Positions 7,342 through 64,000 of a stretch of 64,000 bases of DNA are shown here, in pieces (within the stretch, counting starts at the first letter, position 1; each line of letters starts with the position of its first letter). The notes beneath the pieces were generated by a model. That model saw only the letters and a list, made by a program, of their open reading frames with translations, searched no databases and had not been told where the DNA came from. The position numbers were made by a program, and so were the translations under genes. Where the stretch lies: positions 930,001 through 994,000 of the forward strand of contig NC_017455.1 of NCBI RefSeq assembly GCF_000165465.1. Reading direction: 5' to 3'. This DNA is from Halanaerobium praevalens DSM 2228. GTDB lineage: Bacteria; Bacillota; Halanaerobiia; Halanaerobiales; Halanaerobiaceae.

Positions 7342-7370
7342 AGGATTAAAATTAGATTAAAATAAAATAA

Positions 7371-7451
7371 AAAGCAAAACAACCTAAAGGTTGTTACGCA
7401 AAAACATAGGTCTAAAGCTTTTAAGCCATGACTGTTATGTCTGCCTCAGGT
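7371..7451 (+). ncRNA. Cyclic-di-GMP-I (GEMM) riboswitch aptamer before the pilus operon
   Basis: The conserved GEMM-I pattern is visible. GCAAA leads into a hairpin ACAACC-TAAA-GGTTGT (7379-7394), then the invariant ACGCAAA joining segment. Next comes the P3 arm ACATAGGTCTAAAGC with partner GCCATGACTGTTATGT, ending CTGCC. The tetraloop-receptor CTAAAG and the GCCATGAC segment are typical of this class. The element sits between a promoter and an intrinsic terminator, so the ligand probably decides between termination and read-through into pilB. Whether c-di-GMP turns the operon on or off cannot be told from the sequence alone. Confidence 0.92.
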
Positions 7452-7548: not shown

Positions 7549-7624
7549 TTATGGTTAGGAACTATAAATACTAAATTTTATTTGAAAATAAATTATGAGA
7601 AAATACATTGGGGGTGGAAGTTCT

Positions 7625-9322
7625 ATGGCCAAAAAAAGAGTTAAATTAGGTGAGTTACTAGTAGAACATGAATATATAACTGCTAAAGAATTAAAAGAGG
7701 CTTTAAATAAATTAGATAATACAGATAAAAAAATTGGTGAAGTTTTAGTTGAATTAGGATATGTTAAAGAAGAAGATTTAATTGAAGTTTTAGAATTTCA
7801 GCGCGGAATTCCTCATGCAGATCTGGATAAATATTTCTTTGATCCTTCTTTAGCAGAATTAATTCCGGAAAATATTGCCAGACGTTATTTAGCAGTACCT
7901 ATGGAAAAAAGTAGTCAAGGTAAGTTAAAAGTTGTAATGGCAGATCCAACTGATTTAGTTGCAATTGATGATTTAGAGATGTTAAGTAATTTTAGTGTAG
8001 AACCTCTTTATGGAGCACCAAAACAAATTAGAGCTGCTATTGATAGACTATATGGTAGTGATGAAATAGATATTTCTAATATTTTTGCGGATTTTGATTT
8101 AGAAGATTTAGAAGAAGTTTCTGATAATCAAGATGAAGAAATTTATGAAGAAGAACAATTAAGGGAAATGGTTGATGAGGCTCCAATTATTAAACTAGCT
8201 AATTATATAATTAGTAAGGCATATCAAAAAGGAGCAAGTGATATTCATATTGAGCCTGAAGAAGATAAAATAAGGGTTAGGTTTAGAATTGATGGAGTTT
8301 TGAAAAAAGAAATGACTGCCCCTAAATCTTCACACAGAGCTTTGGTTTCTAGAATTAAAATTATAGCCAATTTAGATATTACAGAACATCGAGTACCTCA
8401 AGATGGCCGGATTAAGATGATTTTTAAAGGTGAAAAACTTGATATGCGAGTTTCAACTTTACCTACGATTAGAGGAGAAAAGGTAGTAATTCGTCTTTTA
8501 GCTCAAAATACTAGTTTATTAGATTTAGATAATTTAGGCTTATCAGAATATAATAGAGAAAAATTTGGCAGTTTAATCCAAAAACCAAATGGGGTTTTAT
8601 TACTAACTGGTCCAACTGGTAGTGGAAAATCAACAACTTTATTTGCTGCTTTAAATGAGTTAAATAGTTCTCAAATTAATATGTTAACAATTGAAGACCC
8701 AGTTGAATATCAAATACCAGGAATTAATCAGGTTCAAGCTCAACCTAAAGCTGGTTTAACTTTTGCTAAAACTTTAAGATCTATCTTAAGACAGGATCCT
8801 GATATTATAATGATTGGAGAGATGAGAGATCAAGAAACAGCTGAAATTGCTGTGAGATCAGCTTTAACTGGCCATCTAGTTTTTAGTACTCTGCACACTA
8901 ATGATGCAGTTAGTTCGATAACTAGATTGACAGATATGGGTTTAGCATCTTATTTAGTAGCTGCTTCTTTAAATGGAGTGGTGGCCCAGCGTTTGGTACG
9001 CAAATTATGTCCCCACTGTAAGGAAAAAAGAAAATTAGAAAAAACTGATTTAAAATATTTAAATCAACCAGAACTAAAAGAAGCATATTTTGCTGTTGGT
9101 TGTGAAAAATGTAATAACACTGGTTATAATGGGAGACTTGCTATTCAAGAAATTTTTGAAATAGATAATCAAGTTAGAGAAATGATTAGTGATAATTATA
9201 GTAAAGAAAAAATCAGTGAATACGCAAAATCACAGGGGATGGTAACTTTGAAAGAAGATGGAATAGCAAAGATCAAAAAAGGTGAAACTGATATTTCTGA
9301 ATTAAGAAGGATTATCTATTAA
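7625..9322 (+). CDS. pilB: Type IV pilus extension ATPase PilB with c-di-GMP-binding MshEN domain
   Basis: 565 residues; powers pilin polymerisation at the inner membrane. Residues about 7-60 form a tandem MshEN motif (KLGELLVEHEYIT and KKIGEVLVELGYV), a known c-di-GMP-binding fold in PilB/GspE-like ATPases. Then come the N2 domain (ASDIHIEPEEDKIRVRFRID), Walker A GPTGSGKST (about 329-337), the Asp box and Walker B region (DPDIIMIGEMRD), the His box (STLHTNDA) and a zinc site (CPHC and CEKC). I start at ATG 7625, 7 bases after GGGGGTGG; an ATG at 7595 lacks a ribosome site. First gene of the pilus operon. Confidence 0.95.
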   Translation: MAKKRVKLGELLVEHEYITAKELKEALNKLDNTDKKIGEVLVELGYVKEEDLIEVLEFQRGIPHADLDKYFFDPSLAELIPENIARRYLAVPMEKSSQGKLKVVMADPTDLVAIDDLEMLSNFSVEPLYGAPKQIRAAIDRLYGSDEIDISNIFADFDLEDLEEVSDNQDEEIYEEEQLREMVDEAPIIKLANYIISKAYQKGASDIHIEPEEDKIRVRFRIDGVLKKEMTAPKSSHRALVSRIKIIANLDITEHRVPQDGRIKMIFKGEKLDMRVSTLPTIRGEKVVIRLLAQNTSLLDLDNLGLSEYNREKFGSLIQKPNGVLLLTGPTGSGKSTTLFAALNELNSSQINMLTIEDPVEYQIPGINQVQAQPKAGLTFAKTLRSILRQDPDIIMIGEMRDQETAEIAVRSALTGHLVFSTLHTNDAVSSITRLTDMGLASYLVAASLNGVVAQRLVRKLCPHCKEKRKLEKTDLKYLNQPELKEAYFAVGCEKCNNTGYNGRLAIQEIFEIDNQVREMISDNYSKEKISEYAKSQGMVTLKEDGIAKIKKGETDISELRRIIY

Positions 9323-9345
9323 ATTAAGATTGGAGAGTGATCTGT

Positions 9346-10407
9346 TTGGAATTAAAAAAATTATTAGAAATAGTATCTCAGGATGATCAAATATCTGATC
9401 TTCATTTAACAGTTTTTTCACCTCCTTATATTCGCAGAAATGGGAAATTAGAACCATATTCACAATATGAGGGAGAATTAAGTGTTGCAGATACTGAAAA
9501 TTTTGCTAAAGCAATGATGAATAAAAAACAATACCAGGAGTTTAAAGCTCAAGGAGAATTAGATTTTTCTTATCGAATGCCAGGCACCTCACGTTTTCGA
9601 GTTAATGCTTATCATCAAAGAGGAAGTGTTGGAATTGCTTTAAGAATTATTCCAAATCAAGTACCAACAATTGAAGCCATGAACTTGCCTAAAGTTTTAA
9701 AAAAACTAGCTTACCAAAGAATGGGTTTAGTTTTAAGTACTGGCCCAACAGGTAGTGGTAAATCTACAACTCAGGCAGCAATTATTAATGAAATAAATAA
9801 AAATAGACAGTGTCATATTATGACTTTAGAAGATCCAATTGAATATCTGCATAAACATAATAAGAGTCTTGTTCATCAGCGTGAAGTAGGTAGTGATACT
9901 AATAATTTCAAAAGAGGTTTAAGAGCCTGTTTACGCCAAGATCCAGATGTAATTTTAGTTGGAGAAATGAGAGATTTGGAGACTATTCAAATTGCTTTAG
10001 AGGCGGCAGAGACGGGTCATTTAGTTTTAGCAACTCTGCATACTAATAGTGCTCCTGCTACTATTGATCGAATAATTGATGTTTTCCCAGCAGCTCAACA
10101 AGGACAGATTAGGATTCAATTAGCTTCAGTTATTAGTGCAGTTATAGCTCAACAGTTAATTCCAACTAAAGATCAGAGTGGAAGAGTAGCAGCTTTTGAA
10201 ATTATGATGGCAACTTCTGCAATTAGAAATATAATTAGAGAAGGGAAGACAAATCAGATTTATTCTGCTATTCAAACTGGTGGTCGTTATCAAATGATTA
10301 CAATGGATAATTCTCTTTTGAAATTGTACAAGAGAGATAAAATTACTAAAGAATCAGTATTACATCACTGTAATGATATAAAATATGTTAATGAAAAATT
10401 GAGATAA
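9346..10407 (+). CDS. pilT: Type IV pilus retraction ATPase PilT
   Basis: 353 residues; drives pilus retraction for twitching and DNA uptake. Motifs are DLHLTVFSPPYIRRNG at the N terminus, Walker A GPTGSGKST (about 133-141), DPDVILVGEMRD, the His box ATLHTNSAPATIDRIIDVFP and the AAFEIMMAT motif typical of PilT. TTG at 9346 is preferred because GGAGAGTG is 8-12 bases upstream; GTG at 9337 is too close to it. Its presence makes this cluster a retractile type IV pilus, unlike the second cluster. Confidence 0.93.
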   Translation: MELKKLLEIVSQDDQISDLHLTVFSPPYIRRNGKLEPYSQYEGELSVADTENFAKAMMNKKQYQEFKAQGELDFSYRMPGTSRFRVNAYHQRGSVGIALRIIPNQVPTIEAMNLPKVLKKLAYQRMGLVLSTGPTGSGKSTTQAAIINEINKNRQCHIMTLEDPIEYLHKHNKSLVHQREVGSDTNNFKRGLRACLRQDPDVILVGEMRDLETIQIALEAAETGHLVLATLHTNSAPATIDRIIDVFPAAQQGQIRIQLASVISAVIAQQLIPTKDQSGRVAAFEIMMATSAIRNIIREGKTNQIYSAIQTGGRYQMITMDNSLLKLYKRDKITKESVLHHCNDIKYVNEKLR

Positions 10408-62283: not shown

Positions 62284-62545
62284 AAAAGAATTTGAAAAGA
62301 AAATCAAAATTGAAGAATTAGATTTTGAGTCTGCCCTAGCAAAATTACAAAAAATTGTAGACGATTTAGAAGAAGGTGGGAATGATTTAGATAAAACTTT
62401 AGCAGAATTTAGTCAAGGAATGAAATTGCTTAAATTTTGCCACCAAAAATTAGATAAGGCAGAATCCAAAATAGAATTAATGTTAAAAGAAAATCAAGAA
62501 TTTACTAAAGAAGTAGCTTTTGAATCTGAGTTGGGAGAGGATTAA
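62273..62545 (+). CDS. xseB: Exodeoxyribonuclease VII small subunit
   Basis: 90 residues, mostly two helices. The motif FESALAKLQKIVDDLEEGGN with LDKTLAEFSQGMKLLKFC is the XseB signature. ATG 62273 lies 6 bases after GTGGGTG and inside the end of xseA; a GTG at 62264 overlaps that site. Confidence 0.95.
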   Translation: MENKKEFEKKIKIEELDFESALAKLQKIVDDLEEGGNDLDKTLAEFSQGMKLLKFCHQKLDKAESKIELMLKENQEFTKEVAFESELGED

Positions 62546-62547
62546 TT

Positions 62548-63429
62548 TTGGATAAAATAAAGAATATTTTAAAAGCTAAAGCAGAAGTTATTGAAGAAAA
62601 TCTAATAAAGTTATTAGATTGTCAAGATGAACTTGCACCTCAATTAACTAAGTCAATGAAATACACCCTACTTTCGGGAGGTAAAAGGATTAGACCAATC
62701 CTTACTCTTTTAATAGCCGAATTATTAGAAGGTAATTATCAAGCTGCTTTAAAAGCAGGATCTGCCTTAGAGATGATTCACAGTTATTCTTTAATCCATG
62801 ATGATTTGCCAGCTATGGATGATGATAAATTAAGAAGAGGAAAAAAGACTAACCATCTTGTTTTTGGAGAGGCAACTGCAATTTTAGCTGGAGATGGACT
62901 TTTAACTTATGCTTTTCAAGTGTTAGCTGATCTAGAACTTAAGCCTGATTTAAAGGTTAAAATTATTGCAAATACAGCCAAATTCTCTGGTTATCAGGGA
63001 ATGGTTGGAGGTCAGGTTTTAGATCTTGAGGCTGAAAATAAGGACTTAACACTTCAAGAAATGCAAAAAGTACATCAAGCTAAAACTGGAGCCTTGATTA
63101 AAGCATCAGTTTTAAATGGAGTTTATTGTTCTGATTTTAAGCCAGAAGAGAAAAAAGCACTTTTAACTTATGCAGAAAAAATTGGAGTCTTATTTCAGAT
63201 AGTAGATGATTTGCTAGACTTAACTGGTGAAACTGAGGCGATGGGAAAAGTAGTTGGTAGGGATCAAGAATTAAATAAAGCAACTTACCCTAAATTATTA
63301 GGGTTGAAAAAGGCTCAAAAAGAAGCTGAAAAATATGCTAAAGAGGCTAAAGAAGCTTTAATTATTTTTGGCAAAAAAGCTGAGAAATTAGAAGCTTTAA
63401 TTGATTTTATTTTAAAAAGACAGCAGTAA
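62548..63429 (+). CDS. ispA: Farnesyl/geranylgeranyl diphosphate synthase
   Basis: 293 residues. It builds isoprenoid chains by adding isopentenyl diphosphate. The first aspartate-rich motif is IHDDLPAMDDD and the second is QIVDDLLDLTG; GGKRIRPILTLL is also typical. TTG 62548 follows GGGAGAGG by 7 bases. It is the last protein gene of the xseA-xseB-ispA row, and OLE-like RNA follows, the known context of OLE. Confidence 0.95.
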   Translation: MDKIKNILKAKAEVIEENLIKLLDCQDELAPQLTKSMKYTLLSGGKRIRPILTLLIAELLEGNYQAALKAGSALEMIHSYSLIHDDLPAMDDDKLRRGKKTNHLVFGEATAILAGDGLLTYAFQVLADLELKPDLKVKIIANTAKFSGYQGMVGGQVLDLEAENKDLTLQEMQKVHQAKTGALIKASVLNGVYCSDFKPEEKKALLTYAEKIGVLFQIVDDLLDLTGETEAMGKVVGRDQELNKATYPKLLGLKKAQKEAEKYAKEAKEALIIFGKKAEKLEALIDFILKRQQ

Positions 63430-63458
63430 TTGAAGCCCCTAAATAAATGTGTTATAAT
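63430..63458 (+). promoter_or_regulatory. Promoter of the OLE-like RNA
   Basis: TTGAAG (63430-63435), a 17-base spacer and TATAAT (63453-63458) directly after the ispA stop, predicting a start near 63465. The RNA may thus be made alone as well as from the upstream operon. Confidence 0.75.
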
Positions 63459-63464
63459 TAGTTA

Positions 63465-64000
63465 AAATGCAGATGGTGCAGTATTCTAGTCAGCATACTA
63501 TCTTTGAAGGCGGGCCTAAAAATCCGTCAACGGGCATATCGATGAAGTTCTTTGTAATGGCTGCTGACGCCCAGTCGGGGGCTGTTGCAGAGAGATAAGG
63601 GCTTGGGGCGATCCACAATGGCATGTGGGCGTTGACCCCTTTCCCGCGGAGGCCTGGTCGAGTTTGTAAAAAATAAGGCTAGGTTCACCTGTTCTAACCG
63701 CAAGGTTGAACAGTGTAGCCTGCTTTGAAGTGGTACTGGAGACAGTAGCAAAACACAGACGCTTGGATCCAGCTCTGGGTTGAACCTGCTGGAAACCAGT
63801 ACTGCAAAAGAAGCTAGGGGATAGTTTAAATGCTGTTAAGGAAAACTTCTAGACTGTCTTAGTGAATTCAATAGGGATTAAAGTGTGTTCTTAGTGGCAA
63901 TCCAGCTCTGTAGAGGGAGACCCTACAGCAGGAATTTAAAGAGAAATCTCCTGATTGGTGACGATTAGGAATTCCTGGGGAAAACCTGCTGGACCTATGA
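63465..64000 (+). ncRNA. ole: OLE RNA (ornate, large, extremophilic), 3' end beyond the window
   Basis: At least 536 bases with no supportable protein frame, a sharp rise in G+C (40 of 60 bases in one hand-counted line, 63601-63660) and many local complementarities, for example GCAGTATTCTAG against CAGCATACT and AGGTTCACC against GGTTGAAC. OLE RNA is about 600 bases and is found in anaerobic and extremophilic Firmicutes, almost always beside ispA/xseB, exactly as here. It associates with the membrane proteins OapA, OapB and OapC and is linked to stress tolerance. OapA would be expected just downstream, outside the window. Confidence 0.87.

Follow-up and report, generated by a model that had tools for sequence, protein, structure and literature searches.

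A predicted OLE RNA gene upstream of oapA in Halanaerobium praevalens, a member of a genus with repeated loss of OapB

Among structured bacterial RNAs that still lack an assigned biochemical function, OLE RNA is one of the largest, and a block at the end of a 64,000-nucleotide stretch of the Halanaerobium praevalens DSM 2228 genome (the window; NC_017455.1, positions 930,001 to 994,000) raises the question of whether this RNA is encoded here, and with which partner proteins it would work. The initial annotation had described a GC-rich, non-coding block of more than 530 bases behind ispA, and the composition bears this out: positions 63467-64000 have a GC content of 47.6% vs 27.9% in the rest of the window, and the other 534-base stretches sampled from the window reach at most 40.3%. 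The block holds a single sense open reading frame of 43 amino acids, and the longest antisense frame encodes 74 amino acids; a coding reading was rejected because these frames are short and at chance level. According to the Rfam match described below, the block continues 43 bases past the window edge (genome position 994000), to genome position 994043.

Searched against the window only, the Rfam OLE covariance model (RF01071) matched 63457-64000 with 404.6 bits (cut-off 50), the match being clipped by the window edge. With flanking DNA included, the complete match covered model positions 1-616 and genome positions 993457-994043, with 446.9 bits, far over the same cut-off, and an E-value of 5.1e-130 to 1.2e-128. 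This was the single OLE match in the 2,309,262-base genome, and the same model found no OLE in 14 control genomes. Among the 146 base pairs of the Rfam structure that are present in the H. praevalens RNA, 134 are standard pairs. The score is below that of most OLE RNAs (the best reach about 530-578 bits), because P7, P8 and the distal part of P9 are shortened or divergent.

The fold was assessed on an alignment of 32 OLE sequences, all those that 59 genomes of the class yielded, by counting the pairs of the Rfam structure together with two long-range helices assigned here (P1 and P3). Across this alignment 88.9% of cells were paired, and two-sided changes were seen in 95 of 161 pairs; the covariation score was 0.379, compared with 0.184 after shuffling and 0.07-0.12 when partners were slid by 1-3 columns. 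The match thus combines a length of 587 positions, in the range of the ~600 nt typical of OLE, with an ornate structure backed by covariation. Helix names (Table 1) follow the text, not a figure, of the published structural work (PMC12265935), and their mapping onto this RNA is ours. The closing helix P1 covaries at 7 of its 8 pairs and is paired in 99.6% of cells; P3, formed by UAUUC and UA, has no two-sided changes, and its support is conservation. The P4 loop corresponds to a dimer contact in cryo-EM work (PMC12265935). The tip of P9 reads GGAUCC in H. praevalens and GGUACC or GGGCCC in relatives, again palindromes, with a few relatives deviating; tips that differ yet stay self-complementary are what the published P9-P9 kissing contact would lead one to expect. 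In the OLE RNA of another member of the order (L037 in G202), about 60 bases are missing from the distal P9 arm, the arch through which one dimer contact is made. In two further genomes (L046 and L051 in G326 and G327), a palindrome near P4a, AUCGAU at OLE positions ~80-90, has become AUAAAU or AUAAUU; by our mapping this is the published OapA contact region, and the other sampled genera of that family have neither OLE nor OapA. Six genomes (G118, G153, G184, G215, G235 and G266) show OLE as 2-4 partial matches each, which could reflect insertions, duplications or contig breaks.

Table 1. Features of the OLE locus, in window positions.
Feature	Position	Strand	Basis or detail
ispA (farnesyl diphosphate synthase), directly upstream	62548..63429	+	Pfam polyprenyl_synt 5.7e-61; NCBIfam FPPsyn 4.7e-106, above cut-off; stop codon 63427-63429
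Sigma-A-type promoter, extended -10	63430..63458	+	TTGAAG (63430-63435), 17-base spacer, TATAAT (63453-63458), TG ahead of the -10; -35 starts one base after the ispA stop
OLE RNA (RF01071)	63457..64000	+	First 544 of the 587 positions of the Rfam match; covariance match and covariation
P1 (own assignment), 5' strand of closing helix	63470..63477	+	CAGAUGGU, pairs with ACCAUCUG just beyond the window end
P4 hairpin, invariant A-rich loop	63509..63528	+	Covariation alignment; named after PMC12265935
P5/P5.1, loop GCCCA	63548..63594	+	Two-sided changes in 9 of 20 pairs
P6/P6.1	63599..63645	+	3' strand CCCCUUUCCC, without CCUCC anti-Shine-Dalgarno mimic
P7, shortened	63653..63683	+	Base stem retained; A/U-rich loop in place of the distal stem
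P9 long arm	63722..63814	+	Self-complementary GGATCC at tip (63765-63770)
P12.2 5' strand and hairpin P13	63901..63928	+	Published OapB-binding region; 63901-63906 pairs with 63988-63993 (P12.2); P13 is 63908-63928
P14/P15 arm (own naming)	63929..63977	+	Two-sided changes in 14 of 16 pairs

The gene expected next to OLE lies just outside the window. It starts 57 bases beyond the window end, spans genome positions 994057-994620 and encodes a membrane protein of 187 amino acids with a TTG start codon and a ribosome-binding site (AGAGGAGG). The Pfam CNNM match of this protein is weak (E 0.00077, below the cut-off), and since the Pfam CNNM and KOW models are too weak to classify OapA or to find OapB, dedicated alignments were used for both. 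A profile built from seven OapA sequences of the class, one of them this same sequence, matched the protein with an E-value of 7.3e-87. Among the 59 genomes, full-length OapA and OLE are found in precisely the same 32; the 27 OLE-less genomes have no OapA except fragments of 43-48 residues in two draft genomes (G308 and G309, 72% and 90% complete). The closest relatives of the H. praevalens protein share 70-89% identity and are nearly all named Halanaerobium. The gene order, ispA-OLE-oapA-dxs-tlyA-nadK-recN-spo0A, agrees from ispA to dxs with the published neighbourhood, and joins isoprenoid, translation, DNA repair and sporulation genes in the kind of cluster by which OLE is recognized. The OLE reading passed both tests by which it could have been refuted, the search for a hit to the OLE model over the block and that for an oapA gene nearby downstream. 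That the block is instead a different structured RNA, or GC-rich by chance alone, has a negligible probability given an E-value of about 1e-128 to a curated model, the covariation of the fold and oapA as a neighbour. We therefore regard the locus, on comparative grounds, as very probably a genuine OLE gene carried by a Halanaerobium species, and its RNA is an ordinary member of the known family.

The promoter proposed by the initial annotation, TTGAAG-17-TATAAT, is present directly behind ispA, but its hexamers alone carry no significance: a consensus scan found 3 promoter-like sites in the region, and 3.3 are expected from shuffles. For this reason we examined its conservation across relatives. 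In all 32 class members the extended -10 sequence TGnTATAAT is found no more than 70 bases ahead of the conserved OLE core (0.3 expected in composition-shuffled sequences), and the same holds for 18 of 27 other Bacillota (0.2 expected from shuffles). The RNA is predicted to start at about 63465. At the other end, no terminator-like site was found on the + strand in the scanned region 62500-64000, and none was evident on visual inspection of the final bases ahead of oapA; the ribosome-binding site of oapA follows the closing helix by about 10 bases. Read-through into oapA, with processing to form the RNA 3' end, is therefore probable, so that the end of OLE RNA would be set by processing or read-through.

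This arrangement, with its own promoter, no visible terminator and a ribosome-binding site so close behind the closing helix, could also be that of a long 5' leader that mainly regulates oapA and dxs in cis instead of yielding a separate trans-acting RNA. We consider this very unlikely: published OLE RNAs are abundant membrane ribonucleoproteins (RNPs; PMC12265935), relatives differ in how far the oapA start lies from the OLE 5' core, and the fold is much bigger than known cis-regulators. Somewhat different evidence bears on the idea that this OLE RNA is decaying, with the missing OapB and bS21 and the short P7-P9 as signs of an RNP that is being lost. OapB has been lost, bS21 is undetected, the score is low within the family, P7 and P8 are short, and several sister families in the class lack both OLE and OapA. 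All domains nevertheless still pair and their conserved blocks are intact, as are the promoter and oapA; the short P7 is common to the genus, including species that bear OapB, and published natural variants without P7 and P8 are presumably functional. Decay is accordingly an improbable explanation, and we keep to the reading of a retained OLE RNA gene.

The partner proteins were then compared across the class. OapC (YbxF) is represented by a single L7Ae-family gene adjoining rpsL; its top hit in the PDB is an L7Ae protein of the YbxF type. In relatives, OapB is a KOW protein of 93-107 amino acids encoded between map and infA, with a match to PDB 7k9b ('OLE-associated protein B'). A profile built from relatives of 7k9b found OapB in 25 of 32 OLE genomes and in 3 of 27 OLE-less genomes of the class, and the same profile gave no match in the whole H. 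praevalens genome. The gap between map and infA, about 204 bases long (L067 5036-5238), is an oapB deletion scar, which keeps the upstream promoter-like sequence as well as the terminal codons and stop, the remainder being gone; the retained codons contain the infA ribosome-binding site. A similar, shorter scar is present in G314, and in G315 and G317 the gene was lost differently. On the tree of OLE and oapA, well-supported branches make it necessary to assume three separate changes for the OapB-less species. The genome comparison thus indicates that OapB was lost at least three times within Halanaerobium, with OLE RNA and oapA retained every time. We found no description of repeated recent OapB loss within one genus with OLE and OapA kept in the open-licence literature, a weak negative. 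OapB is missing from ~40% of OLE carriers (PMC11332333), so its lack does not exclude membership of the OLE RNA class.

Decay of the OapB-binding helices after OapB loss was rejected, as P12.2 and P13 in all of these OapB-less species are no less well paired than in OapB carriers. Better pairing of P15 as a correlate of OapB absence was likewise set aside: by eye, three of the four OapB-less Halanaerobium pair somewhat better here, but so does the carrier G322. One Pfam search of the H. praevalens genome gave no match to bS21 (PF01165). The CCUCC anti-Shine-Dalgarno mimic that the P6 of Halalkalibacterium halodurans contains is absent from P6 of H. praevalens, and it is rare elsewhere (2 of 31 sequences in the class and 3 of 17 readable ones outside it); a loss of the mimic tracking the loss of bS21 was dropped for this rarity and because bS21 was searched in H. 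praevalens only. H. praevalens is thus apparently without two of the four known OLE partner proteins, OapB being lost and bS21 undetected. Elsewhere the genome encodes, in single copy, one MpfA-type protein with CNNM, two CBS and CorC_HlyC domains, which is consistent with the published pattern of usually no more than one such protein per OLE carrier (PMC11332333). OapA resembles these MpfA/CorC-type CNNM transporters in its weak CNNM match, and differs from them in having no CBS and CorC_HlyC domains.

Compared with the type example from H. halodurans, the locus is alike in its full-length covariance match and invariant sequence blocks, in oapA downstream, in its isoprenoid-gene context and in an OapC homologue. 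It differs in the shortened P7 and the reduced P8 and distal P9, in the absence of OapB and the undetected bS21, and in a host that has LpxC, and so probably a lipopolysaccharide (LPS) outer membrane, alongside its one MpfA-type protein. OLE variants 1 and 2 of the TANB77 and RF39 clades (PMC11332333) share the short P7/P8 region and the missing OapB; unlike in those variants, P7, P8 and P9 do exist here, though short, the OapB site in P13 pairs just as it does elsewhere in the class, there is an OapC, and, at 2.3 Mb, the genome is not strongly reduced.

From published work on OLE of H. halodurans and clostridia and, for the promoter, from its conservation, the following course can be proposed. 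OLE RNA would be transcribed from its own promoter within the isoprenoid gene cluster, fold into two domains and dimerise through the P4, P5.1/P6.1 and P9 loops. OapA, as a CNNM-related membrane protein, would hold the RNA at the cytoplasmic membrane. By analogy, the RNP may aid survival of stress such as cold, alcohol, Mg2+ or a poor carbon source, and it probably acts on or together with divalent-metal handling. In H. praevalens it would consist of OLE RNA, OapA and OapC, without OapB and apparently without bS21.

The host itself gives this composition further interest. LpxC is encoded in the H. praevalens genome (E 5.1e-100), which makes the host diderm, and the Halanaerobiales have been described with LPS outer membranes (PMC5007114). 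OLE, by contrast, is mostly treated in the literature as a Gram-positive device. A 2024 survey took its absence from the Negativicutes, which are diderm, as a hint of a link to the Gram-positive wall (PMC11332333), and a 2025 transmembrane model likewise suggested possible contact between domain 2 and the Gram-positive cell wall (PMC12265935). That a diderm has a full-length OLE RNA in which domain 2 is intact weakens the case for such a link, although OLE had been counted in most Bacillota classes by the survey itself. H. praevalens was probably counted in the 2024 survey, since its genome set was of a similar kind; in the open-licence literature we found no discussion of OLE in Halanaerobium or Halothermothrix, again a weak negative. 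We give an even chance to a working minimal OLE RNP of OLE RNA, OapA and OapC, without OapB or bS21, in a Halanaerobium with an outer membrane. If it is real, the repeated loss of OapB with OLE and OapA kept would make OapB, and bS21, accessory; the conserved helices P12.2 and P13 of the OapB site must then serve another role, and domain 2 would face a diderm periplasm and wall instead of a Gram-positive wall. Closely related Halanaerobium species, some with OapB and some lacking it, amount to a natural experiment on the partners required by the RNP and on the purpose of P13.

Elsewhere in the window, a c-di-GMP-I riboswitch (7363-7448; 54.5 bits, cut-off 35) lies ahead of two T2SSE-family ATPase genes (7595-9322 and 9337-10407), seemingly the first genes of a cluster for a type IV pilus or type II secretion.
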